A DNA stretch of 64,000 nucleotides from a virus. The stretch lies in the IMG/VR virus record IMGVR_UViG_3300006076_000001, positions 1-64,000 of that record; one strand, written 5' to 3'. Below, one piece after another: positions 10,891 to 25,814 of this stretch. Both the position numbers and the translations under genes were made by a program. The notes under the pieces are model-generated. The model saw only the letters and a program-made list of their open reading frames with translations. It was not told the origin of the DNA and did no database searches. Position 1 is the first letter of the stretch. Every line of letters starts with the position of its first letter.

Positions 10891-11559
10891 TTATGTTTTA
10901 AAAAATGAAGCAAACTCTTCTGCTGTTAATTTTCTATAAGGTTGGAATGTAAAATCTACTTTAACAAATAAAGGCACTCCCATATCATCTGTAATAGTTG
11001 ATAAAGTCGGATTAGCTGAAGTGCATAATAATCCTGATGCTTCAAACCAATCACCAATTGATAAATGAATAAGTTGTCCGTCAAAAATTGTATAATCGTG
11101 AAATAAGTTTTTAAGCATTTGGTCGTCATATAAATAAGTTCCATATAATCCAGCTTTATCTACATTTGCCATAGTTAATTTATTTATATTAGTCATTAAT
11201 TCTTGGACTGATGATGGATTACCATCTCTACCTAATAATATATCTATTGATAAAGAAAAAGAAATGTCATTAGGAACTCCATAACCTTTTACCGAATCTC
11301 TGATTGAATGTTCTCTTTCTACATCTGACCCAGAAATTTTTTTCAAAAGACCTTTGATAGCTCCCCATCCAAGTGATTCCAATAAATGACCCATTGTAGT
11401 AATTGAATCGGGTGTCATACCTGTAGGAAATGACATAGATTCTGTATTAATATACCCAGTTATATTAACACCAGCATATGGAGCTGAAACAATTACCAAA
11501 AATTTGCTTAAAAAATCTTTATTAAAGACATTAGAAAGATAATCACTTTTATTTACCAT
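10891..11559 (-). CDS. Baseplate / tail-tube-associated protein
   Basis: 222 aa from the ATG at 11559, which overlaps the tape measure stop as TGATG and follows GGGAGG. It opens with FLVIVSAPYAGVNITGYIN and ends with VPLFVKVDFTFQPYRKLTAEEF, an all-beta outline with a Gly-rich centre (MGHLLESLGWGAIKGLLKK). Position directly after the tape measure and before the LysM and hub genes is that of proteins that start the tail tube (T4 gp48/gp54) or of hub tube-like proteins. I do not recognise a specific family; the baseplate role is inferred. Confidence 0.55.
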   Translation of the reverse strand: MVNKSDYLSNVFNKDFLSKFLVIVSAPYAGVNITGYINTESMSFPTGMTPDSITTMGHLLESLGWGAIKGLLKKISGSDVEREHSIRDSVKGYGVPNDISFSLSIDILLGRDGNPSSVQELMTNINKLTMANVDKAGLYGTYLYDDQMLKNLFHDYTIFDGQLIHLSIGDWFEASGLLCTSANPTLSTITDDMGVPLFVKVDFTFQPYRKLTAEEFASFFKT

Positions 11560-14288
11560 CAAATTCCTCCCATTTGTGTAGCTACTTGATAATTACTTAA
11601 ATCCACTTCTCTAACTGGTTGACCTTTTATAATCTGTTGATTAACCATTGTTACATTTTGTTCTGATTTATTACCTTTCTCATTTGTTGTATCTTTTTTA
11701 TTAGTCACATTTAGAACTTTGTCTGTCATATTAGTAGGCACATTAGTACTAACTTTTGCCACTTCTTCCTCTGATATATTTAAGTATCTAGCAATGTGAG
11801 CGTCTGTATATCCTTTAGATTTTAATAATTCAATTTTTCTTCTTAAAGTATCATTAACAGATGAACTACCACTTTTTTTATGGCTAACCCCTGTAGTAGA
11901 AACAGAAATTTTATTTGATGATTTTTGTTGTTTAAGTTTCTCTTGATATAAAGCTTTAAGTCTTTTCATTGTATCATCGTCCCAATCATCAAACTCAATT
12001 AACTTTTTAATATCCTCTGCTGGTAATTTCTGAATCATATCCCAGTCTTTAATTTCTGAGTCACCTATAACATAATGTTCTAACACACCCATATCTTCAA
12101 GTCTCTCAACTAATTCATATTTATCTCCACCAAACAATGATTGGAAAGCTTTAATGTTATGAGAAATAAGACCTGTAGGAGTAAATGCCGAATTAGCTAT
12201 TTTTTTAACTAAATCTTTAGCTTTTTGAAAAGTAGTTTTAGGTTTTTTACCACCTTTCATTTCATCATTTTTTGGTTTAATAGATTTTTTAATAGAAGCA
12301 TTCTCCATTGCAAACTTTTTACTACTATCGTCCATTACAGAAATTAAATTTTTCAACTCTTTTTTATCTTTTATTTGAGTAGCTAAATCTGCAATGCCTT
12401 TCTTAGTTAGATGTAATTTACCATCTATAATATAAGCATCCCCTCTATCAAACTCTTCAGCTAATTTCATTCTATCTTCTAATTTCATTTTATAAAAAGT
12501 TTTAAGTAATTTTTTAGTCTTATCGTCCCAATCATCAAAATGGATTAGGGATTGTAAAGTTTTGTCATCTGCCATTTTTAATAATTTACCCCAATCCTTA
12601 ATTTCTGAATCACCTATAAATGAATAATCTACAATGCCTTGTTGTTCCAATTGGTTAATAATCTCTTTATCTTTACCATATTTATGATTATAGATAGCAA
12701 ACCCTGCTCCAACCACTGCTGTCGCACCTAATACAGCCCAACCTACTGGATTAGATACTAAAGCTGGGATAGCTCTCATTGCTAATCCCGCACCAGTTCT
12801 TAACAATGACCCAGCTCCTCTAGCAATTGTAGAAACTGCTCCCCCAAGTTTAGGTAATTTAATTTTGCTAAAAAGGTTACCGAATAAACCACTAAGTTTA
12901 GCGGCTAATTTACCACCATATTTTTTACTGAATTTATCGAAAATCTTATCTAAAATAGTGTCTTCCCCAAATATCTTGTCAAGAACAGCAATGGTAGCGT
13001 TCTCACCTAATTCTTCTAAAGAGTTGGATTTACTAACTATCTCTCCAAAGAAATGTTTAGAGTTTTGAGCCTTAATCTCTTCACTAACTTCTGCTAAAGT
13101 AGTTGCTGTCTTTTCCAATAACTCGAATCTTTTTTCTTGCAAAATCTTATCAGCATTATCTAATTGATTTGTTTTTACTGCTTCCTCTACCTGTTTAGTA
13201 TAATCCAATAATTTTTCAAATTGGTCTTTTGAAATACCATTTTCAGCAAAAATGTCTCTTAGTTGTTCCTCTGTTAATTTGCCCTCTTTAAACTCTCTAA
13301 AAGTTTTTTCAAGTATCTTTCTCTGTTCTAACGATAAACTGGTAGTTTCTGCTAAATAAGCGTCCATCTCATTCAAAAGAATAGTCATTTCATCAAAATG
13401 TTTATTAATTTTTTCTAATAAAGAAGTAGTGTCCTCACCTTGCTTTTCCAATTCTTTAATAAACTCTTGAAGTGAAACTTGACCTGTTACCAGTTGGTCG
13501 TAAATTGGAGAGTTTTTTATACTATCAGACAAAGTATTATTTAAGGTATCTATTACTTCGTCATATTGTTTAGACATTATATTTTTAGTAATAGATTGTT
13601 CTATTACTTTAGATAACACATCTTTATCTGAGATTTCTATACCTTTTTCCTCTAAAGTTTTTATTGTTTCTATCAAATCAGATAAAGTTTTTTCACTAAG
13701 ACCTCCTGTTTCTTTATATGATTCTACGATTTTATCTAAACCAGATAATAAGTCCTTTCTCTCTAACATAGATACCTTAGTAGTGTTTTTAATATCTTGT
13801 TCCAAAGATGATAAAGTCTTAACCATAGCTTTATTTTCTGCATTTAAGTTCTTAACTAATGCGTCCACTATATTAGCTTCAGCATCAGACAATACAGATT
13901 CAAGTAAATCTTCCAATTGCTTTTTCTGTTTATTATTTACATAATCTGTAGATTCAATTTCTCTTTTAAGATAGTCTCTCTGTTGTCTCTTTTGTTCTAA
14001 AGTGGTTACGGCATCAATAATAATTTCTTGTAAAGCCTCAGGAGTAATAGACTTAGTATCTACATTCTTGTTTATGACTCCTAATTTTTTATAATTTTCA
14101 AGAGTTTTTAACATCTCCTCTGTTAATTTACCCTCCAAGGCATACTCTTCTTGTATTTTTAATAATTGGTCTTCAATTAAAGACAAAGAGGGTAATCCAT
14201 TTTTCTCTAATGTTGATACAAATTTATCTATTTTTAAATTTGTATTTTCTAATAACTTTTTTACTTCTGGACTTAAATTGTTATCCAT
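11559..14288 (-). CDS. Tape measure protein
   Basis: 909 aa, the longest tail gene, starting just after the tail chaperone. Residues 1 to ~430 are continuous charged helix with coiled-coil character. At about 470-525 there is a Gly/Ala-rich hydrophobic part (LSGLFGNLFSKIKLPKLGGA ... NPVGWAVLGATAVVGAGFAI), typical of the membrane-inserting segment of tape measure proteins. A ~50-residue block with IGDSEIKDW and HFDDWDD / EFDDWDD occurs twice, around 545-600 and 720-780. The protein sets tail length and is ejected with the DNA. Start 14288 has AAGGGG upstream. Confidence 0.85.
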   Translation of the reverse strand: MDNNLSPEVKKLLENTNLKIDKFVSTLEKNGLPSLSLIEDQLLKIQEEYALEGKLTEEMLKTLENYKKLGVINKNVDTKSITPEALQEIIIDAVTTLEQKRQQRDYLKREIESTDYVNNKQKKQLEDLLESVLSDAEANIVDALVKNLNAENKAMVKTLSSLEQDIKNTTKVSMLERKDLLSGLDKIVESYKETGGLSEKTLSDLIETIKTLEEKGIEISDKDVLSKVIEQSITKNIMSKQYDEVIDTLNNTLSDSIKNSPIYDQLVTGQVSLQEFIKELEKQGEDTTSLLEKINKHFDEMTILLNEMDAYLAETTSLSLEQRKILEKTFREFKEGKLTEEQLRDIFAENGISKDQFEKLLDYTKQVEEAVKTNQLDNADKILQEKRFELLEKTATTLAEVSEEIKAQNSKHFFGEIVSKSNSLEELGENATIAVLDKIFGEDTILDKIFDKFSKKYGGKLAAKLSGLFGNLFSKIKLPKLGGAVSTIARGAGSLLRTGAGLAMRAIPALVSNPVGWAVLGATAVVGAGFAIYNHKYGKDKEIINQLEQQGIVDYSFIGDSEIKDWGKLLKMADDKTLQSLIHFDDWDDKTKKLLKTFYKMKLEDRMKLAEEFDRGDAYIIDGKLHLTKKGIADLATQIKDKKELKNLISVMDDSSKKFAMENASIKKSIKPKNDEMKGGKKPKTTFQKAKDLVKKIANSAFTPTGLISHNIKAFQSLFGGDKYELVERLEDMGVLEHYVIGDSEIKDWDMIQKLPAEDIKKLIEFDDWDDDTMKRLKALYQEKLKQQKSSNKISVSTTGVSHKKSGSSSVNDTLRRKIELLKSKGYTDAHIARYLNISEEEVAKVSTNVPTNMTDKVLNVTNKKDTTNEKGNKSEQNVTMVNQQIIKGQPVREVDLSNYQVATQMGGI

Positions 14289-14289
14289 A

Positions 14290-14433
14290 TTATTGCCCCT
14301 TAGATTCCATTTTACTTAATGCAAATTCAACTAAATGCCTAACTTTACTATATAACATTTCTTTTTGTATAGATGTATGAAACATCATCATATATGAAAC
14401 TTCCAAATCTAATAAATTTTTATAAGAATAGCT
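14290..14433 (-). CDS. +1 frameshift extension of the tail assembly chaperone
   Basis: The zero-frame chaperone gene ends ...TTA CCC TAG. In the +1 frame the sequence stays open from the same place for 47 codons (SYSYKNLLDLEVSYMMMF and on to MESKGQ) and stops TAA at 14292-14290, two nt before the tape measure ATG. There is no ribosome binding site for this frame. A CCC-UAG site, where tRNA-Pro can slip from CCC to CCU ahead of a slow stop codon, matches the +1 type reported for Listeria phage PSA (CCC-UGA). Tail chaperones just before the tape measure commonly use frameshifting. The product would be 343 aa. Confidence 0.65.
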   Translation of the reverse strand, partial: SYSYKNLLDLEVSYMMMFHTSIQKEMLYSKVRHLVEFALSKMESKGQ

Positions 14434-15322
14434 AGGGTAAAACCTTAAACACATTCATAGATACATAAATTTTATTATGATACCCACACTTAGGACATCT
14501 TCTAATAATAGGTTTCAATTTAATGTCGGTCTTAGAGTCGTATTCAATAAGCTTATTAATCTCACTAATAGGTAAATTAGAAACCAAATTGTATCTATAA
14601 CCTATGGGATAAGAATTATCAATAAACAATGCAAATTTAGCTACTTTTTCATTAATTTCTGTTTTTACCCTTTTAAAGTCTTCTAATTCTATTATATCAG
14701 ACACCTTAACAGGCTTAAGTTTTATTTTATCCCCATTTACTTCAATATAATCTTCTATGTCAGTTATAACTGAATAGAAATCGATTTCTTCTAATGATAT
14801 CGGTTTATTAAGAGTAGTATTACAAACTGCTACATCTGGTAATAACTCCATTTTAGCTGTTAATTCTAATACCTCTTCCATAAGAGAATTGATTTCTTCT
14901 TCATCATCTAATTCACTAAGTTTTGATTCTAATTTTTCTATGTCCTGTTTAAGTTTTTCTTTCTCTGGGTTTGGCTCTACTAAGTTCCTACATTTAAAAA
15001 CAACTGGCGGAGAGTAATTATCAAATGATAGCATATTAGCAATAGCTGTAGAAATTAAAAAGTCTGGAATCTCCATCTCTCTAATGTCTATTCCTTTAAT
15101 TACATCATCAAAAATAGTAACTAACTTAGAAAGTTGCTTCTCAAACTCTATGTCTTCATCATAAAATTTTGATAAAGCCTCTACCTCTGAAAAATAAAGA
15201 CCTCTTATATAAACTTTATTTGTATTATATGACCTAAATTTAGATGGTAAATCAATAACCTCTAAGTACTGGTCTAATCTTTCTGCTTTATCACTCATTA
15301 ATTTTTTAAACGAAATCTGCAT
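14432..15322 (-). CDS. Tail assembly chaperone / hub chaperone-like
   Basis: 296 aa, between the tube-like gene and the tape measure, the standard site for the tail assembly chaperone. The N-terminal part has SKFRSYNTNKVYIRGLYFSE and a DDVIKGIDIREM segment. Residues ~120-165 are a charged coiled coil (EKEKLKQDIEKLESKLSEL). The end has one CxxC (RRCPKCGYHNKIYVSM). The outline resembles the T4 gp26/gp51-type hub chaperones, but I would not insist on that family. The gene ends CCC TAG with an open +1 frame beyond (see 14290-14433). Start at 15322 has AAAAGGAG. Confidence 0.65.
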   Translation of the reverse strand: MQISFKKLMSDKAERLDQYLEVIDLPSKFRSYNTNKVYIRGLYFSEVEALSKFYDEDIEFEKQLSKLVTIFDDVIKGIDIREMEIPDFLISTAIANMLSFDNYSPPVVFKCRNLVEPNPEKEKLKQDIEKLESKLSELDDEEEINSLMEEVLELTAKMELLPDVAVCNTTLNKPISLEEIDFYSVITDIEDYIEVNGDKIKLKPVKVSDIIELEDFKRVKTEINEKVAKFALFIDNSYPIGYRYNLVSNLPISEINKLIEYDSKTDIKLKPIIRRCPKCGYHNKIYVSMNVFKVLP

Positions 15323-15347: not shown

Positions 15348-15866
15348 TCACTTTTTATTAACACCTAACACTGAAAAGCTTATCGGTAAAGTCCCTAATG
15401 AATAATCTTGGTCTCCCCTAATTGTTAAATCCTTACTAGGTATAACATTAAAAAAGTATTTTTCTTTTATAGTTTTATCTTTCTTATAAATTTCTATAAC
15501 CATTTCCCAAGAGTCTTTTAATAATTGTTCTATATTTTTAACTAATAAAGTGTCCTTACCAAAAAGTTGTTCCCACTTATCTAAAATAATATTTCTTATT
15601 GTTCCCTCTTCATCGTCTATTACTTCCAATTGTACCTCTTTTATAAGTTGTAACCCAACAGGAAACTGAATTTCTAATTGTAAAGGCGTTAGAGTTAGAG
15701 ACTTTTCTATCGTAGAAATAGTAAAAGAGTAATTTACCACTGGAACATACTGCTTATTTAATAAATTTAATTTATTTCCATTATTTTTAGATGTGAAATA
15801 TACTAAGCCTTGTGATGTATGAGCTGGTTCAAATCCTGAACTTTTAATCTGATTTAAAGAAATCAA
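15348..15866 (-). CDS. Tail tube-like or tube-initiator protein, TTG start
   Basis: 172 aa, 42 nt after the tube gene. The beta-rich outline (VVNYSFTISTIEKSLTLTPL ... DYSLGTLPISFSVLGVNKK) and position suggest a second tube-like protein or tail terminator, perhaps one per virion ring. The start is TTG at 15866-15864, six nt after GGAGG, and no ATG lies in a better place. The binding site itself sits in a small hairpin (15873-15889), so translation is probably kept low compared with the tube. No family recognised. Confidence 0.5.
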   Translation of the reverse strand: MISLNQIKSSGFEPAHTSQGLVYFTSKNNGNKLNLLNKQYVPVVNYSFTISTIEKSLTLTPLQLEIQFPVGLQLIKEVQLEVIDDEEGTIRNIILDKWEQLFGKDTLLVKNIEQLLKDSWEMVIEIYKKDKTIKEKYFFNVIPSKDLTIRGDQDYSLGTLPISFSVLGVNKK

Positions 15867-15908: not shown

Positions 15909-16445
15909 TTACCATTTAACTTTTTTACTTTCATAATGATAATCATCATAAGTAAATGTAACTGATGGATTTTGAACTGCTGAATCTTGTCCTAATTGAG
16001 CCACTGGGTCAAAGTCTGGTAAGCATCCAATTAAATGATATGTTTTAGTAGGATTATCATCTCCGTCAAGCATAATTAAATCAATATCAGCTTTTAAATC
16101 TTCTGTTTTTGCTTGTTTTCCAGTAGTGTCTTTACCATCACCAGACCAGTAAGCGTTATACCATTGCATAAATACATCTTCTACTCCTGCATCTGTCCCA
16201 TCTACCAATTGTAGAGGAATTGAGCCACTTTTTTCCATTTTACCTGCAAAATTTAAAGTATGCCCAGCTACTTTTACTTGAATATGGTTAGGAGTAGCTT
16301 TAGGTGCTTGTGTAGATATAGCTCTAATTTCAATGTCTTCTGGTATGTTTATACCTTTAGGTTTAGTAACAAATCTAATTTGCCACCTATATAGTGTTTG
16401 AACTTCCCCAACCGCTTTTCTAGCTTTAGAATAACTAATTTTCAT
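15909..16445 (-). CDS. Tail tube protein
   Basis: 178 aa, directly after the sheath gene, as in nearly all myoviruses. It has the beta-rich outline of tube proteins: YRWQIRFVTKPKG at the start, IEIRAISTQAPKAT, VAGHTLNFAGKMEKSG, and VTFTYDDYHYE at the end. In this family R-I-x-T-x-x-P and the G-x-x-x-x-x-G strands form the inner barrel that stacks in hexamers. Start at 16445 has AAGGAG upstream. It is probably one of the most abundant virion proteins; the leader contains a 7-bp hairpin at 16474-16490. Confidence 0.85.
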   Translation of the reverse strand: MKISYSKARKAVGEVQTLYRWQIRFVTKPKGINIPEDIEIRAISTQAPKATPNHIQVKVAGHTLNFAGKMEKSGSIPLQLVDGTDAGVEDVFMQWYNAYWSGDGKDTTGKQAKTEDLKADIDLIMLDGDDNPTKTYHLIGCLPDFDPVAQLGQDSAVQNPSVTFTYDDYHYESKKVKW

Positions 16446-16473: not shown

Positions 16474-16490
16474 CGGAACTTAAAGTTCCG
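16474..16490 (-). terminator. Hairpin between sheath and tube genes
   Basis: CGGAACT-TTA-AGTTCCG (minus strand), perfect 7-bp arms with a 3-nt loop that includes part of the sheath stop codon, followed by TTTAATATC. The T-run is short, so it is more likely a partial attenuator or an mRNA-stabilising end for the downstream tube transcript than a full terminator. Confidence 0.45.
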
Positions 16491-19047
16491 CTTTGATTTC
16501 TACCCCATAAGGGTATGTTGCTAATGTAACTGGAATCTCTTTAATAGAGCTTGTAGGTTGAATTCCTACGAAAATTGGCATTCTTTGATTGTTAATATCT
16601 TGACCTGAAATAACATCTTTAACTGCTACTTTATATTTATAAAGCCCTCTTTTTGATTTGATATCCATTAGGAACTTATCAATTGCTCTTTCTGTTTCTA
16701 CCCAAGTTCTTTCATCATTGAAATCGAACTCTTTGTATTCAAGCATTTCTCTAAGTCCGTGTTTGATAACAATCAATAAGATTGCTACACTTCTTTGTGT
16801 TAATGGACTTGGTTTGCTAAACAATGTTCTATTACCCCAGATTGCAAACCCTTTATCTGAACTATATTTTAATGGGTTAATTCTGTTATCTATTAACCAG
16901 TCTCTCTCAGGCTCTGATGGAACGATTTTAGATTCAAGAACTCTAATTCTACCTCTTTCCCAACCAGCTGCTGGATACCAGTCATAATAATCTTTATGAG
17001 TAATTGTTTGAGCCACAATTGCAAATGCACTAGGTGGAGTCCATACATACTTTTTGTTATATCTATCATAAATTTTAACCCAACCTGCAAACACTGATGC
17101 CTTTTCTGTATTAAGATTTAGACTTGCTACATAATCAACTACATCTTGTTTCCAATTGTTACTGTCTTCTGCATTAGGGTCAATTGATAGATAACAATGT
17201 GTTTCATCTTGTTTTTCTGCAATCTCTACCATTGCTTGAGCGTAAGCTGGGTGTGTGTATCCACCATCACAAAGTAATACTACAGGTGTTTTTTCTCTAT
17301 TTTCAAGTGTATATAAAGCATTTAACATTTCAGCTAATGTTACTGGTGACCCATCACTACCACCATTCATTAAATTAACACCTGCATCAAGTAATTTACC
17401 AACTTTATCACCAATTACAAATGTTTTACCAATTGGGTAATTGTAGAATACTCTATCTAATTTTGTAATTGGGTAATATCTAACTCCGTGATAAATTCCC
17501 TCATCAGCATTATTATAAGATGCATCAAATTTGTATAATTCAGTTTGTTTTGTATTACCCTCTAAGTCTTCATATGTTCTAGCGATTTCATACTCTTCAA
17601 CTGGTCTATCAAGAATAATGTAATTGTTTGCACTATCTATGCTACTAATTTTATATTCTTTTGAATACACTGGAGAACCACCTATATTAACATCATAAAC
17701 AAATTTAACTCTATCACCTATTGATAATCCATCAACTGATGAAAGTAATACTTGTTTATGTCCTCTCAATACATTTTCTGCTAAATGAATTCCTGTTGAA
17801 ATAAATACATCTTCTGGCAATTGTCTCCAGTAACTATGGTCTGTATAAAGTGGATTATTTTCAAAGTTTCTGTTATCAATTACTTTGATGTATTTTGATT
17901 TACCATTAATTCTGTCTTCTAAATAAAGTTGATTATCATTACCATCAATAAAATCGTGTTTTGTAACTTCCCAAGTTTCTACAAGAACTCCCTCATCATA
18001 TACTAAAATGTTGAAAGCTTCTTCATAATTTTTGCTAGGAGCTATACCAATAGAAATTTTACCATTGCCCCAAGCACCAGCTGATTCTTCTACTACTAAG
18101 AATGAATCTCTTTCTTCAAATTCATAATGAGTGATTTTCATTAGGTTTTTACCTATTGTATCTACTTCTGCTTTAATGTTATCTACATAAATTACATTTT
18201 CATCTACTGTTAATTTATCTTTTTGTTTTACAGTTGTAGTTTGGTCTCCAATTTTGATTTCCATTGTAGGAGTTAGATAGTCTGCATTATCAACTAAAAT
18301 CTGTTTTGAATTTTCAGCATTAGCCATTACAGTAGGATTACCTTTAATTGGATTACCATCTTTATCTTTAATTACAGTCCCCTTAGTTACTGTAACCGCA
18401 TCATCTAAAGTAACTAAATCATACTCCACTTTCTCTGTTTTTAAATCCACAATAGTGTAGTATGGTAATGATTCTCCTACATTGTTATTTGGGTCATTTA
18501 GTTCATCTTCAGTCAATGAATTAGAAACAATGCTAAATTTGTCCCCAACTTGAAGAGTACCAAAAGTATCAACCACTAATTTACCCATTTTAAGTGGAGA
18601 TTTCATTTCAATGTTTTCTTTTGCGTATGTTCTATTACCTAAATAAAGTGGAAATTCAAATGATTCTAATTTTTTATATGGAATACCATCATCTAATGGT
18701 TTTACTACCATTGCTTCATCATTCCATTTAGCAAATGGATTAGTTGTATCTATTGAAATAGTTTTTCCTCTAACCAATACTCCAGCATACTTAGTATCAT
18801 CTGTAGCTGCTCTAACTACCCATACTTTTCCATTTTCACTTAACATAGTTAAAGCACTATAAGTCTCTGGAAATCTTGGGTCTGGGTCTCCATACACATC
18901 TAAGTATTCAGACACTGAAGTAGTAAGTCTTGGAACATTAATATCACCTTTACCTGCTCTCACTACAATACCAGCAAAAATCCCATCCATTGATGGAACT
19001 ACATCACCTCTAATTTGCTCTTTTATAATAACTTTTGCACTTCCCAT
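16480..19047 (-). CDS. Tail sheath protein
   Basis: 855 aa, long for a sheath protein (T4 gp18 is ~660). The N-terminus VIIKEQIRGDVVPSMDGIFA followed by GIVVRAGKGDINVPRLTTSVSEY is the usual sheath opening. The C-terminal ~250 residues contain the conserved core: DRYNKKYVWTPPSAFAIVAQ, WYPAAGWERGRIRVLES, NRINPLKYSSDKGFAIWGNRTL, and the final DVISGQDINNQRMPIFVGIQPTSSIKEIP. The middle ~450 residues are a large variable insertion exposed on the outer surface. The sheath contracts to drive the tube through the cell wall. Start at 19047 has AAGGAG. Confidence 0.95.
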   Translation of the reverse strand: MGSAKVIIKEQIRGDVVPSMDGIFAGIVVRAGKGDINVPRLTTSVSEYLDVYGDPDPRFPETYSALTMLSENGKVWVVRAATDDTKYAGVLVRGKTISIDTTNPFAKWNDEAMVVKPLDDGIPYKKLESFEFPLYLGNRTYAKENIEMKSPLKMGKLVVDTFGTLQVGDKFSIVSNSLTEDELNDPNNNVGESLPYYTIVDLKTEKVEYDLVTLDDAVTVTKGTVIKDKDGNPIKGNPTVMANAENSKQILVDNADYLTPTMEIKIGDQTTTVKQKDKLTVDENVIYVDNIKAEVDTIGKNLMKITHYEFEERDSFLVVEESAGAWGNGKISIGIAPSKNYEEAFNILVYDEGVLVETWEVTKHDFIDGNDNQLYLEDRINGKSKYIKVIDNRNFENNPLYTDHSYWRQLPEDVFISTGIHLAENVLRGHKQVLLSSVDGLSIGDRVKFVYDVNIGGSPVYSKEYKISSIDSANNYIILDRPVEEYEIARTYEDLEGNTKQTELYKFDASYNNADEGIYHGVRYYPITKLDRVFYNYPIGKTFVIGDKVGKLLDAGVNLMNGGSDGSPVTLAEMLNALYTLENREKTPVVLLCDGGYTHPAYAQAMVEIAEKQDETHCYLSIDPNAEDSNNWKQDVVDYVASLNLNTEKASVFAGWVKIYDRYNKKYVWTPPSAFAIVAQTITHKDYYDWYPAAGWERGRIRVLESKIVPSEPERDWLIDNRINPLKYSSDKGFAIWGNRTLFSKPSPLTQRSVAILLIVIKHGLREMLEYKEFDFNDERTWVETERAIDKFLMDIKSKRGLYKYKVAVKDVISGQDINNQRMPIFVGIQPTSSIKEIPVTLATYPYGVEIKAEL

Positions 19048-23149: not shown

Positions 23150-23989
23150 TTATTTGTCTCCTTTTATTAAGTTAGTCAAAATAGATTCTATTTCATCAAA
23201 TTTATAATAAGGTATTCTGATTAAATTAATCTTGTTTGCTTTAGCATAATTATTTTTAATTTTATCTCTTTTCTGAATGTTTTCAAGCTCCTCTTTTCCA
23301 CCAAAATTGTTATTTGGTTTAAAATGCTGTTCTCCGTCATACTCAATCAAAACATTATAATCTGGCAAATAAAAATCGAAATAATAACTTTTATTATCGA
23401 TAAGCACTTTATATTGGTGAGTATAATTAATGTTATGCCTATCTAAAAAGTGTTTTATCTTAAGTTCCCCCTTAGACAATTTACAATAAATACAACCAAA
23501 TTGTTCTTTATGTAAATGGTTTTTCACACTTTGATAAAATAGTCCGTGTTGAGGACAAATGATTGATATCTTTGTGTGTACCCCTTTATAATGCTGTCCC
23601 CACCAAATTTCATTAAATGGATAAGTGTATCTATTATTATGGATTTTGTTGGCTCTAACAATAAACTCTTGATAAGTAAGTTTTTTCTCTATATTAAGAC
23701 AATTGAGACATTGATGTCCCTCAAGATGTTTATTGATTCTTCTATTAAAAATAGCCCCACATACCTCACATTTTAATGGAACTTTATCCTTAAAAGAAGT
23801 AATATTATTAAGCCACCAATCTAAATCAAACTGGTAAGAGATGGTATCATATAGCCTGTTGTGTTTTTCCACAAAATAATAATATTTAAACTCTTTTGAA
23901 AGATACCTGATAACATTAGACCCCAATTTAAGGTCTCTTTGATTTTTAAGAAACAAAATCCAACTATTTATATCCATATCTTTAAACAT
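23150..23989 (-). CDS. Zinc-ribbon-repeat homing endonuclease-like protein (2 modules)
   Basis: 279 aa, the shortest of five paralogues. After an N-terminal part related to the others (WILFLKNQRDLKLGSNVIRY) there are two zinc-ribbon-like modules: a degenerate one (LKCEVCGAIFNRRINKHLEG) and a good one (IICPQHGLFYQSVKNHL then GCIYC). The last ~110 residues form a PD-(D/E)XK-type nuclease: NKSYYFDFYLPDYNVLIEYD with GEQHF following (D..., E-x-D-G-x-QH). It sits between the UvrD-like helicase and the 272-aa gene. I infer a free-standing homing endonuclease; the binding site AAAAAGG is weaker than most. Confidence 0.7.
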   Translation of the reverse strand: MFKDMDINSWILFLKNQRDLKLGSNVIRYLSKEFKYYYFVEKHNRLYDTISYQFDLDWWLNNITSFKDKVPLKCEVCGAIFNRRINKHLEGHQCLNCLNIEKKLTYQEFIVRANKIHNNRYTYPFNEIWWGQHYKGVHTKISIICPQHGLFYQSVKNHLHKEQFGCIYCKLSKGELKIKHFLDRHNINYTHQYKVLIDNKSYYFDFYLPDYNVLIEYDGEQHFKPNNNFGGKEELENIQKRDKIKNNYAKANKINLIRIPYYKFDEIESILTNLIKGDK

Positions 23990-23990
23990 T

Positions 23991-25814
23991 TTAACCTTTT
24001 TTTAGATTATTTATAAATTCATTAAATTTTGGATAAGGTTTAACTCTAACTGTCCCTAATTTAAATGTGTTTTTATTTTCATAATTAATTATAAATAACT
24101 TATCCATTGGTCTAGTAATAGCTGTATAGAATACAGAATAAGTGGAATCATCAAACTCAAATGATGTATCACACATATCTGTAACAAAAACAATTTTGTT
24201 TTCAAGTCCCTTATATTGATGTATAGTCGTCATTTCGATTTTATCTGAGTTCTCTTCATCATAATCTTCTATTCTCTGAACTATGTTAAACACTAATTCT
24301 TCTATGTCAGTAATACCCTCCTCTTCTATTAATTGCTTAATAAAATTAGAAAATGTTTTTAATGCTATGTTTAATTGTTTTTCTGTAAATAACGATTGTT
24401 TAAAATGTTGCTCCGCAAATGACTTTAAAAATGAGTTAAGTATAATTAAATCCTTAACCGATTTTAGGTTATGTCTTCTTGCATTTAGAATAGAAATAAA
24501 TTCATCGATTTTGTCTCTTTTTGGGTCATTAATAGATGGGTTTGCAAGTAATCTATTTTTAAATGATTCCCCTATACCAATCCAATAATCTGAAATTGAA
24601 TAGATGTATAACTTATTACCAGAAATAAGATACTGGTAAACCGAAATAAAAAAGTTGTTAATAGGGACTTCAAAAAATTTTCTTTTGTATAATGGTGTCC
24701 TAACTTTATAGGGTAAATTAGCCCTAACAAATGACGGCTCAAGGATAGTCTTAATAAAAGAAGACTTCCTAACTAAAATAACAAAATCTTTAAATTTTAG
24801 AGTTGGGTCTTGCTGTCTAAGTTCTCTAATTTGTTTAACTATAAAATTACCGACTTGAGTATCTATTTTTAAAGTAGTAATTTTAACTGCCCCTTTAGTT
24901 TCTGGTCTGTATGGAATAGCAACTAAATCATCTACCAACTCTCTATACTTATTAGAAACTTTAACTATAATCCCATCAGACCTATAATTATAAGGTAAGC
25001 TTAATTTAAAAATTTGTTTTTCTTTCCCGAAGTATTGTTCTGGGTTATCCATAGGCTCTGAATAGGCATACCTAAAAGAGTATAACTTTTGCATATTATC
25101 ATAAATTAGAATTATAGAAGCATTAGGAAACAAACTTTCTAAAATAAAATGATTTGCTTTTGATGCATCTTGTGCTTCATCGTGAAAAACATATTTAACT
25201 TGTTTATCAATCATTTCTGGTAAAAGCACCTTTTCAGAAACTAAATCATCAAAATCTAATAAATTATTCTTTTTCTTATATAACTCATACCAATTATAAA
25301 CCATTTTAAAATTTTTCTCCGTAAATGGAACAGTATCGTTAAAAAATTGCCATAATGATTTCTCATTAGGGTCAATTAAATTTGCTCTAAAAAATGATAG
25401 ATAATTAAAAAATTGTTGAGCGTATGCTGTCCCCTCTTTTTTAGTTTGATAATAGATTCCTGCTTGTGGTAAATAATCTCTAATTAATTTTGTAGATTCC
25501 CACTCTGTCAAGACAGTAACTTTTGGAAAAAGTTGTCTATATTTATTATAGACAATGGAATGAATTGTCCCTACAATTACTCCCTCAATCCCTTGTTTTT
25601 TTAATTTTCTCTTAGCCTGAGAACCCATTCTATTAGAAAAAGTAGCTAAAACAATTTGTTCTGGTTTGACACCGCTATCTATTAGTTTTTCTATTTTAGC
25701 TACTGAAGAAGTAGATTTACCAGCACCCGCTACTGCTTTTACTAAAAGAACGGATTTATCTGGCAAATCAAAATCAATGTATTTTTGTTGAAATTCATCA
25801 AATTTAATTGACAT
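23991..25814 (-). CDS. UvrD/Rep-like superfamily 1 DNA helicase
   Basis: 607 aa. SF1 motifs in order: Q-motif and Walker A (FDEFQQKYI ... VKAVAGAGKSTS, ~25-37), motif Ia (LATFSNRMGSQAKRKL), Walker B with DEAQD (VFHDEAQDASK, ~205), motif III (IYDNMQKLYSFRYA), motif IV (YNYRSDGIIVKVSN), V (IEMTTIHQYKGLENKIVFV) and VI (VFYTAITRPMDKLFI). Known roles of the family are replication restart, recombination and displacement of proteins from DNA, as with T4 Dda. Start at 25814 has AAGGAG. Confidence 0.92.
   Translation of the reverse strand: MSIKFDEFQQKYIDFDLPDKSVLLVKAVAGAGKSTSSVAKIEKLIDSGVKPEQIVLATFSNRMGSQAKRKLKKQGIEGVIVGTIHSIVYNKYRQLFPKVTVLTEWESTKLIRDYLPQAGIYYQTKKEGTAYAQQFFNYLSFFRANLIDPNEKSLWQFFNDTVPFTEKNFKMVYNWYELYKKKNNLLDFDDLVSEKVLLPEMIDKQVKYVFHDEAQDASKANHFILESLFPNASIILIYDNMQKLYSFRYAYSEPMDNPEQYFGKEKQIFKLSLPYNYRSDGIIVKVSNKYRELVDDLVAIPYRPETKGAVKITTLKIDTQVGNFIVKQIRELRQQDPTLKFKDFVILVRKSSFIKTILEPSFVRANLPYKVRTPLYKRKFFEVPINNFFISVYQYLISGNKLYIYSISDYWIGIGESFKNRLLANPSINDPKRDKIDEFISILNARRHNLKSVKDLIILNSFLKSFAEQHFKQSLFTEKQLNIALKTFSNFIKQLIEEEGITDIEELVFNIVQRIEDYDEENSDKIEMTTIHQYKGLENKIVFVTDMCDTSFEFDDSTYSVFYTAITRPMDKLFIINYENKNTFKLGTVRVKPYPKFNEFINNLKKG

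Follow-up and report, generated by a model that had tools for sequence, protein, structure and literature searches.

A probable prfB-like +1 frameshift in a viral tail-assembly chaperone with predicted kinship to T4 gp26/gp51

The myovirus tail-assembly chaperone gene analysed here very probably gives rise to a G/GT pair, a short form of 296 aa and a long form of 343 aa, through a programmed +1 ribosomal frameshift of the prfB type. We observed the shift site, a conserved +1 coding sequence, conserved nucleotide signals and a kinship with T4 gp26/gp51. The frameshift had been put forward in an initial annotation of this DNA, and the interpretation gains support from nine diverged lineages of relatives, which carry a CCY codon directly before a stop together with a homologous +1 peptide. 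The prfB-like Shine–Dalgarno (SD) element and the T4 kinship were absent from that annotation and are added here.

The shift site within the tail gene cluster

The window is the whole stretch of DNA that was analysed, 64,000 nucleotides with a G+C content of 29%, taken from positions 1 to 64,000 of the 93.8-kb virus record IMGVR_UViG_3300006076_000001. Its relevant features are as follows:

16480..19047, minus strand: tail sheath protein, 855 aa (PHROG tail sheath, 4e-45); query for fetching relatives
15909..16445, minus strand: tail tube protein, gp19-like (PHROG tail tube, 2e-8; Pfam gp19, 5e-5)
15348..15866, minus strand: 172-aa tail protein, whose Carin-5 equivalent is annotated 'baseplate tail-tube protein'
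14432..15322, minus strand: 0-frame ORF, putative tail-assembly chaperone (gpG-like, 296 aa), ending ...FKVLP*, from relatives and a fold match
14486..14497, minus strand: C276-x-x-C279 knuckle, likely zinc site with C111 (14990-14992) and C167 (14822-14824); cysteines invariant in clade A
14443..14446, minus strand: AAGG, internal SD-like element (-9 to -6 relative to the slip codon); Lys AAG kept in 6/6 lineages
14435..14437, minus strand: candidate slip codon CCC, with +1 re-pairing on CCU, from the sequence and relatives
14432..14434, minus strand: TAG stop of the 0-frame, which would occupy the A site during the slip; UAG, UAA or UGA in all clade A relatives
14290..14433, minus strand: +1-frame extension (gpT-like, 47 codons plus TAA), a conserved peptide; predicted fusion to residue P296 of the 0-frame protein, 343 aa
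11559..14288, minus strand: presumed tape measure protein, 909 aa, from position and length only

The chaperone gene lies, as G/GT genes do, between the tail tube gene and the presumed tape measure gene, the latter assigned from its position and its equivalent in Cobetia phage Carin-5. A family search with the 909-aa ORF (11559..14288) gave no match; in Carin-5 its counterpart has PHROG matches to tape measure and tail lysin. The order of sheath, tube, chaperone and long ORF is common to the window, Carin-5 and the Yersinia phages GN1 and YerA41. The tube gene (15909-16445) is a separate ORF, and the putatively frameshifted gene encodes neither the tail tube nor a major structural protein. Ordinary SD sequences precede most gene starts in the window, so the host probably uses SD sequences. 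Phage-encoded tRNA genes, for example for tRNA-Pro, were not found within the window. Just upstream of the tail genes, two adjoining minus-strand ORFs, read by eye only, encode a 279-aa zinc-ribbon protein resembling a homing endonuclease (23150-23989) and a UvrD/Rep-like helicase of 607 aa (23991-25814).

On the minus strand, the 3' end of the 296-aa ORF reads GUU UUA CCC UAG, with CCC at 14437-14435 and TAG at 14434-14432, as the initial annotation had it. It was also correct in giving 47 further open codons in the +1 frame (14433-14293) and product lengths of 296 and 343 aa. Starting from AGC, this frame reads AGC UAU UCU... and encodes SYSYKNLLDLEVSYMMMF... up to a TAA at 14292-14290. The next ATG, presumed to start the tape measure gene, occupies 14288-14286, which leaves a gap of 1 nt (14289) rather than the two nucleotides first reported. 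The description of the extension as lacking its own binding site holds in that codons 1-9 contain no start codon; codon 10 is TTG and ATGs fall at codons 15-17, and the description has to be relaxed for these ATGs, which have a weak GGAAG upstream. A -1 slippery heptamer, the usual G/GT form, is not present at the site, where the direction would be +1 at a CCC-stop.

By mononucleotide shuffling, the chance of such an open +1 frame is 0.6% for the window locus alone. A loose SD-CCY-stop pattern was matched 10 times in the AT-rich window versus 8.7 expected, which is chance level; the CCC-TAG motif alone is thus unremarkable here, and its significance comes from conservation in relatives. CCC makes up 7 of the 206 Pro codons counted in the window. 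Pairing of the AAGG with the anti-SD sequence is weak (-3.9 kcal/mol), and 12% of positions in the gene are equally good.

Conservation of the site and its signals

Searching by tblastn recovered three annotated phages, Carin-5, GN1 and YerA41 (26% identity). Peptide-pattern scans with the chaperone yielded few relatives and none in genome contigs; a scan with the sheath gave the remaining ones. Seven metagenomic lineages were obtained, L005 and L009 via the chaperone and L021, L023, L024, L025 and L029 via the sheath. Together with the window, Carin-5 and the Yersinia phages (GN1/YerA41, one lineage), they form the ten diverged lineages that we call clade A. The nine other clade A chaperones share merely 27-38% identity with that of the window, a divergence at which neutral frames would have decayed.

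In all ten lineages the homologous position is a CCC or CCU codon with a stop (UAG, UAA or UGA) immediately after it; a +1 extension of 42-49 codons follows, which encodes a homologous peptide and ends next to the downstream gene. Conservation at CCC-TAG had been proposed as a check, and loss of the +1 frame in relatives as grounds for rejecting the shift: the frame is conserved in all 9 further lineages, and 9/9 end CCC-UAG, CCC-UAA or CCU-UGA, the seven metagenomic ones all with CCC-UAA or CCC-UAG. In Carin-5, GN1 and YerA41, the annotated chaperone ORF ends Pro-stop and precedes an unannotated gap of 142-153 nt, whose +1 frame is open throughout and specifies a peptide resembling that of the window (S-Y-K-N-x-L...). 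Their sites read AGGGGG UAC CCU UGA C (Carin-5) and AGGAGU UAU CCC UAG C (Yersinia phages). This is the G/GT arrangement of a short ORF and an open, conserved extension in another frame without its own start. None of the annotated isolate records that were viewed in detail lists the joined product, and the long chaperone form, missing from the annotation of all isolate phage records examined, is probably missing from many more. Tools tuned to -1 heptamers will miss CCY-stop +1 sites.

More distant relatives, termed clade B, come from phages of Acinetobacter, Rhizobium, E. coli, Vibrio, Thermus and Pseudomonas putida. Comparison of the clade A and clade B chaperone profiles gave 99.3% (E 3e-20). 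At the homologous Pro, clade B has CC[CG] UUU CGU instead of CCY-stop, or CCC UAU in Va2; the 0-frame continues for 9-20 codons past the Pro, from which a +1 frame also stays open almost as far as the next gene. As a +1 motif, UUU-CGN is already known from influenza PA-X and has been proposed for HF1 haloviruses. Judging by position and by a profile alignment extending across the shift site, clade B would also shift +1 at this proline; when the clade A and clade B extensions were compared on their own, their likeness was not significant. One clade B protein, AYJ73978.1 of Thermus phage phiLo (L013, 2474-3220), is annotated as 'DNA methylase', carries a CCG-UUU-CGU +1 site and matches PF12322 (T4_baseplate) above the cut-off; it is probably a misannotated tail chaperone.

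The nucleotides at the site are conserved beyond what they encode in the 0-frame. The slip codon is CCC in 9/10 clade A lineages although this is a rare codon, and in four lineages CCC was not seen elsewhere in the chaperone or the next gene. Six lineages have AAGG at bases -9 to -6 relative to the slip codon. Wherever a Lys codon stands at the SD-like position it is AAG (6/6 lineages), AAA being otherwise preferred; AAG accounts for 3-28% of Lys codons in those six, with a product of 1.4e-6. Anti-SD pairing is strong in Carin-5 (-9.9 kcal/mol), L005 (-9.2 kcal/mol) and GN1 (-6.9 kcal/mol), where it ranks among the top 1% of positions within the respective gene. It is limited to a weak AAGG in the window and five others and is absent in L009, so the SD-like element is not obligatory. 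Carin-5 has the sole CCU site, at which +1 re-pairing on CUU is poorer, and it also has the strongest SD and UGA-C, which looks like compensation in this single case (n=1). No conserved downstream pseudoknot or hairpin stimulator was detected across the lineages, GN1 being the one case that folds better than shuffles. The Yersinia phages are alone in having a stable hairpin immediately 3' of the shift site (L003, 6748-6828; -15 kcal/mol, z -2.7).

The same fusion might be reached by other recoding, that is, by a -2 shift, bypass or transcriptional slippage. A -2 shift leads into the same frame, and the chaperone of phage Mu uses one. We nonetheless rate these routes as very unlikely, as CCC-U re-pairing, the A-site stop and an SD at prfB spacing favour +1, Carin-5 CCU-UGA-C with AGGGGG copies the known +1 cassette of prfB, and the site lacks the homopolymer run that transcriptional slippage would use.

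Coding in the +1 frame and the proposed mechanism

In the +1 frame, clade A extensions reached a mean pairwise local-alignment score of 64 versus 22 for shuffles (z=58). Scores in the two remaining frames, which contained 47 and 53 stops, stayed close to those of shuffles (z 6 and 11). Substitutions were analysed in four close pairs, three from clade B and one from clade A (GN1/YerA41). After the 0-frame stop, third positions of the +1 frame take 22/29 substitutions (p=3e-6), and among changed +1 codons 20 are synonymous and 6 are not. One close pair has 0 changes in the 48-nt dual-coded overlap versus 22 in the 177 nt after it. These patterns indicate that purifying selection acts on the +1 frame.

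Another reading of the +1 ORF is a separate small protein, translated by reinitiation or coupled initiation after termination at TAG. The TTG at codon 10 of the window extension and the ATGs at codons 15-17 with their weak GGAAG offer possible starts, and separate small ORFs appear in some annotations of clade B phages. Across clade A extensions, however, the first possible start lies anywhere from codon 7 to codon 41, or is missing; conservation (F/S-x-Y-K-x) sets in at codon 2, ahead of every possible start. In L024 neither the extension nor the upstream open +1 frame contains an ATG, GTG or TTG, GN1 has no start before codon 37, and L005 has only a TTG at codon 12. With no usable start in the extension of two lineages, reinitiation cannot explain all lineages, and it gives no reason for the kept Pro-stop and SD-like AAG; we consider it highly improbable. 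An indel, a sequencing error or a decaying gene, for which only the frame break itself speaks, can be dismissed almost outright, given that the same codon is broken in ten diverged clade A lineages, that clade B isolates have a homologous +1 frame and that this frame shows the marks of purifying selection.

For the programmed +1 shift, we infer its occurrence, its efficiency and the role of each form from the sequence as follows. Most ribosomes would terminate at UAG and release the 296-aa, G-like short form. A minority would pause while the P site holds tRNA-Pro on CCC and the A site a slow UAG, the upstream AAGG pairing with the 16S anti-SD sequence as in prfB. The tRNA would then re-pair one base forward on CCU, and AGC-UAU-UCU... 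would be read for 47 codons, giving the 343-aa, GT-like long form. On the lambda gpG/gpGT model, the short form would serve to coat the tape measure and the extension at the C terminus to bring in tail-tube subunits, with both forms gone before the tail is complete.

Kinship with T4 and comparison with known systems

PF12322 (T4_baseplate) is the family of both T4 gp26 and gp51, which are listed as hub assembly chaperones, gp51 being listed as absent from the virion. Two clade B proteins, from phiLo (33.4 bits) and RhY65 (29.6 bits), exceed the Pfam cut-off of 24.5, and a Pfam search with the window chaperone gave no PF12322 match. The AlphaFold model of the window protein has a mean pLDDT of 75, falling to about 25-60 in the extension, which was modelled without alignment depth there. 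The model matches T4-like baseplate hub assembly proteins (E 1.3e-6) and has no meaningful match among solved structures; direct profile comparison of the chaperone with gp26/gp51 is weak. By way of the clade A–B profile comparison and the fold match, the chaperone is assigned to the T4 gp26/gp51 (PF12322) hub-chaperone superfamily.

Cysteines C276, C279, C111 and C167 likely form a zinc site in clade A. All four are absent from GR7B, Va2, V1031 and the P. putida phages of clade B, and the Vibrio and P. putida members of that clade (L012, L014, L015-L020) lack the CxxC pairs common to other chaperones. Columns 153-304 of the clade B profile align with residues 5-156 of T4 gp51, second half against first half; this half-alignment suggests that the chaperone arose by internal duplication, with one zinc knuckle per half. 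The window, L021, L023, L024, L025 and L029 have a coiled-coil insertion of 40-50 residues (14825-14990 of the window, residues about 112-166) between the first and second cysteines of the zinc site; Carin-5, the Yersinia phages, L005 and L009 do not.

As in lambda gpG/gpGT (Xu 2004; PMC5009743), the gene lies between tube and presumed tape measure and would make a short form and a form with a trans-frame C-terminal extension. It differs in having +1 at a proline-stop, not a -1 heptamer, and in encoding a protein assigned to the T4 gp26/gp51 superfamily. In tail chaperones -1 is usual and not obligatory, Mu using -2 and HSTV-2 +1.

The mechanism resembles that of the +1 site of prfB (RF2), which shares the internal SD-like element at -9, the P-site slip and the A-site stop, as well as a UAY E-site codon (most lineages) and often a C after the stop. 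The prfB element is a strong SD that ends 3 nt before the slip codon. The Carin-5 sequence AGGGGGUACCCUUGAC is almost the prfB cassette, AGGGGGUAUCUUUGAC. Unlike prfB, with its CUU slip codon and a UGA read by RF2, clade A has CCC or CCU, and the SD is weaker in most of its lineages; the stops are mostly UAG or UAA (UGA only in Carin-5), so this is no RF2 feedback loop.

Published +1 shifts at CCC-stop comprise Listeria tsh, SPP1 gp17.1* and E. coli pheL (CCC_UGA, 15%). The tsh genes of Listeria PSA, A118 and A500 and SPP1 gp17.1* share the rare CCC directly before the stop, re-pairing on CCU and an open +1 frame. PSA, the precedent cited in the initial annotation, thus does use CCC-stop, but in tail-tube and capsid genes and not in a chaperone, as is likewise true of SPP1 gp17.1*; for the SPP1 chaperone gp17.5* a -1 frameshift is putative. 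A +1 shift in a myoviral tail chaperone was earlier proposed for haloviruses HSTV-2 and HF1 (PMC5009743, PMC7230728). The HF1 site UUU-CGC resembles the UUU-CGU of clade B; these viruses are archaeal, and the HF1 site has no CCC-stop. As a relative, the HF1 chaperone was rejected, belonging to an unrelated family by the searches made (PHROG 14268, no PF12322 match). The homologous positions described here would provide a natural series of +1 sites (CCC-UAG, CCC-UAA, CCU-UGA, CCC-UUU-CGU, CCG-UUU-CGU and CCC-UAU), with the strongest SD where re-pairing is weakest (n=1), on which bacterial +1 slippage rules could be tested side by side.

G/GT frameshifting in tail chaperones has been described as widespread 'except T4' (PMC5009743), and our findings would extend the rule to the gp26/gp51 superfamily, previously thought an exception. 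In clade B, phiLo and RhY65 pass the PF12322 cut-off and the window model matches T4-like hub assembly proteins; T4, unlike clade A, has two separate genes without an overlapping extension in either, neither adjoining tape measure gene 29. In PHROG 150 coordinates the C terminus of gp51 extends about 45 residues beyond that of gp26. The +1 extension is collinear with the gp51 C terminus, a likeness that is not significant (8/60 column shuffles were equally good). Tentatively, and with the odds against it, the frameshift pair may be the counterpart of T4 genes 26 (short form) and 51 (longer C terminus). If so, T4 would be no exception to the G/GT rule, gene duplication having replaced the frameshift.
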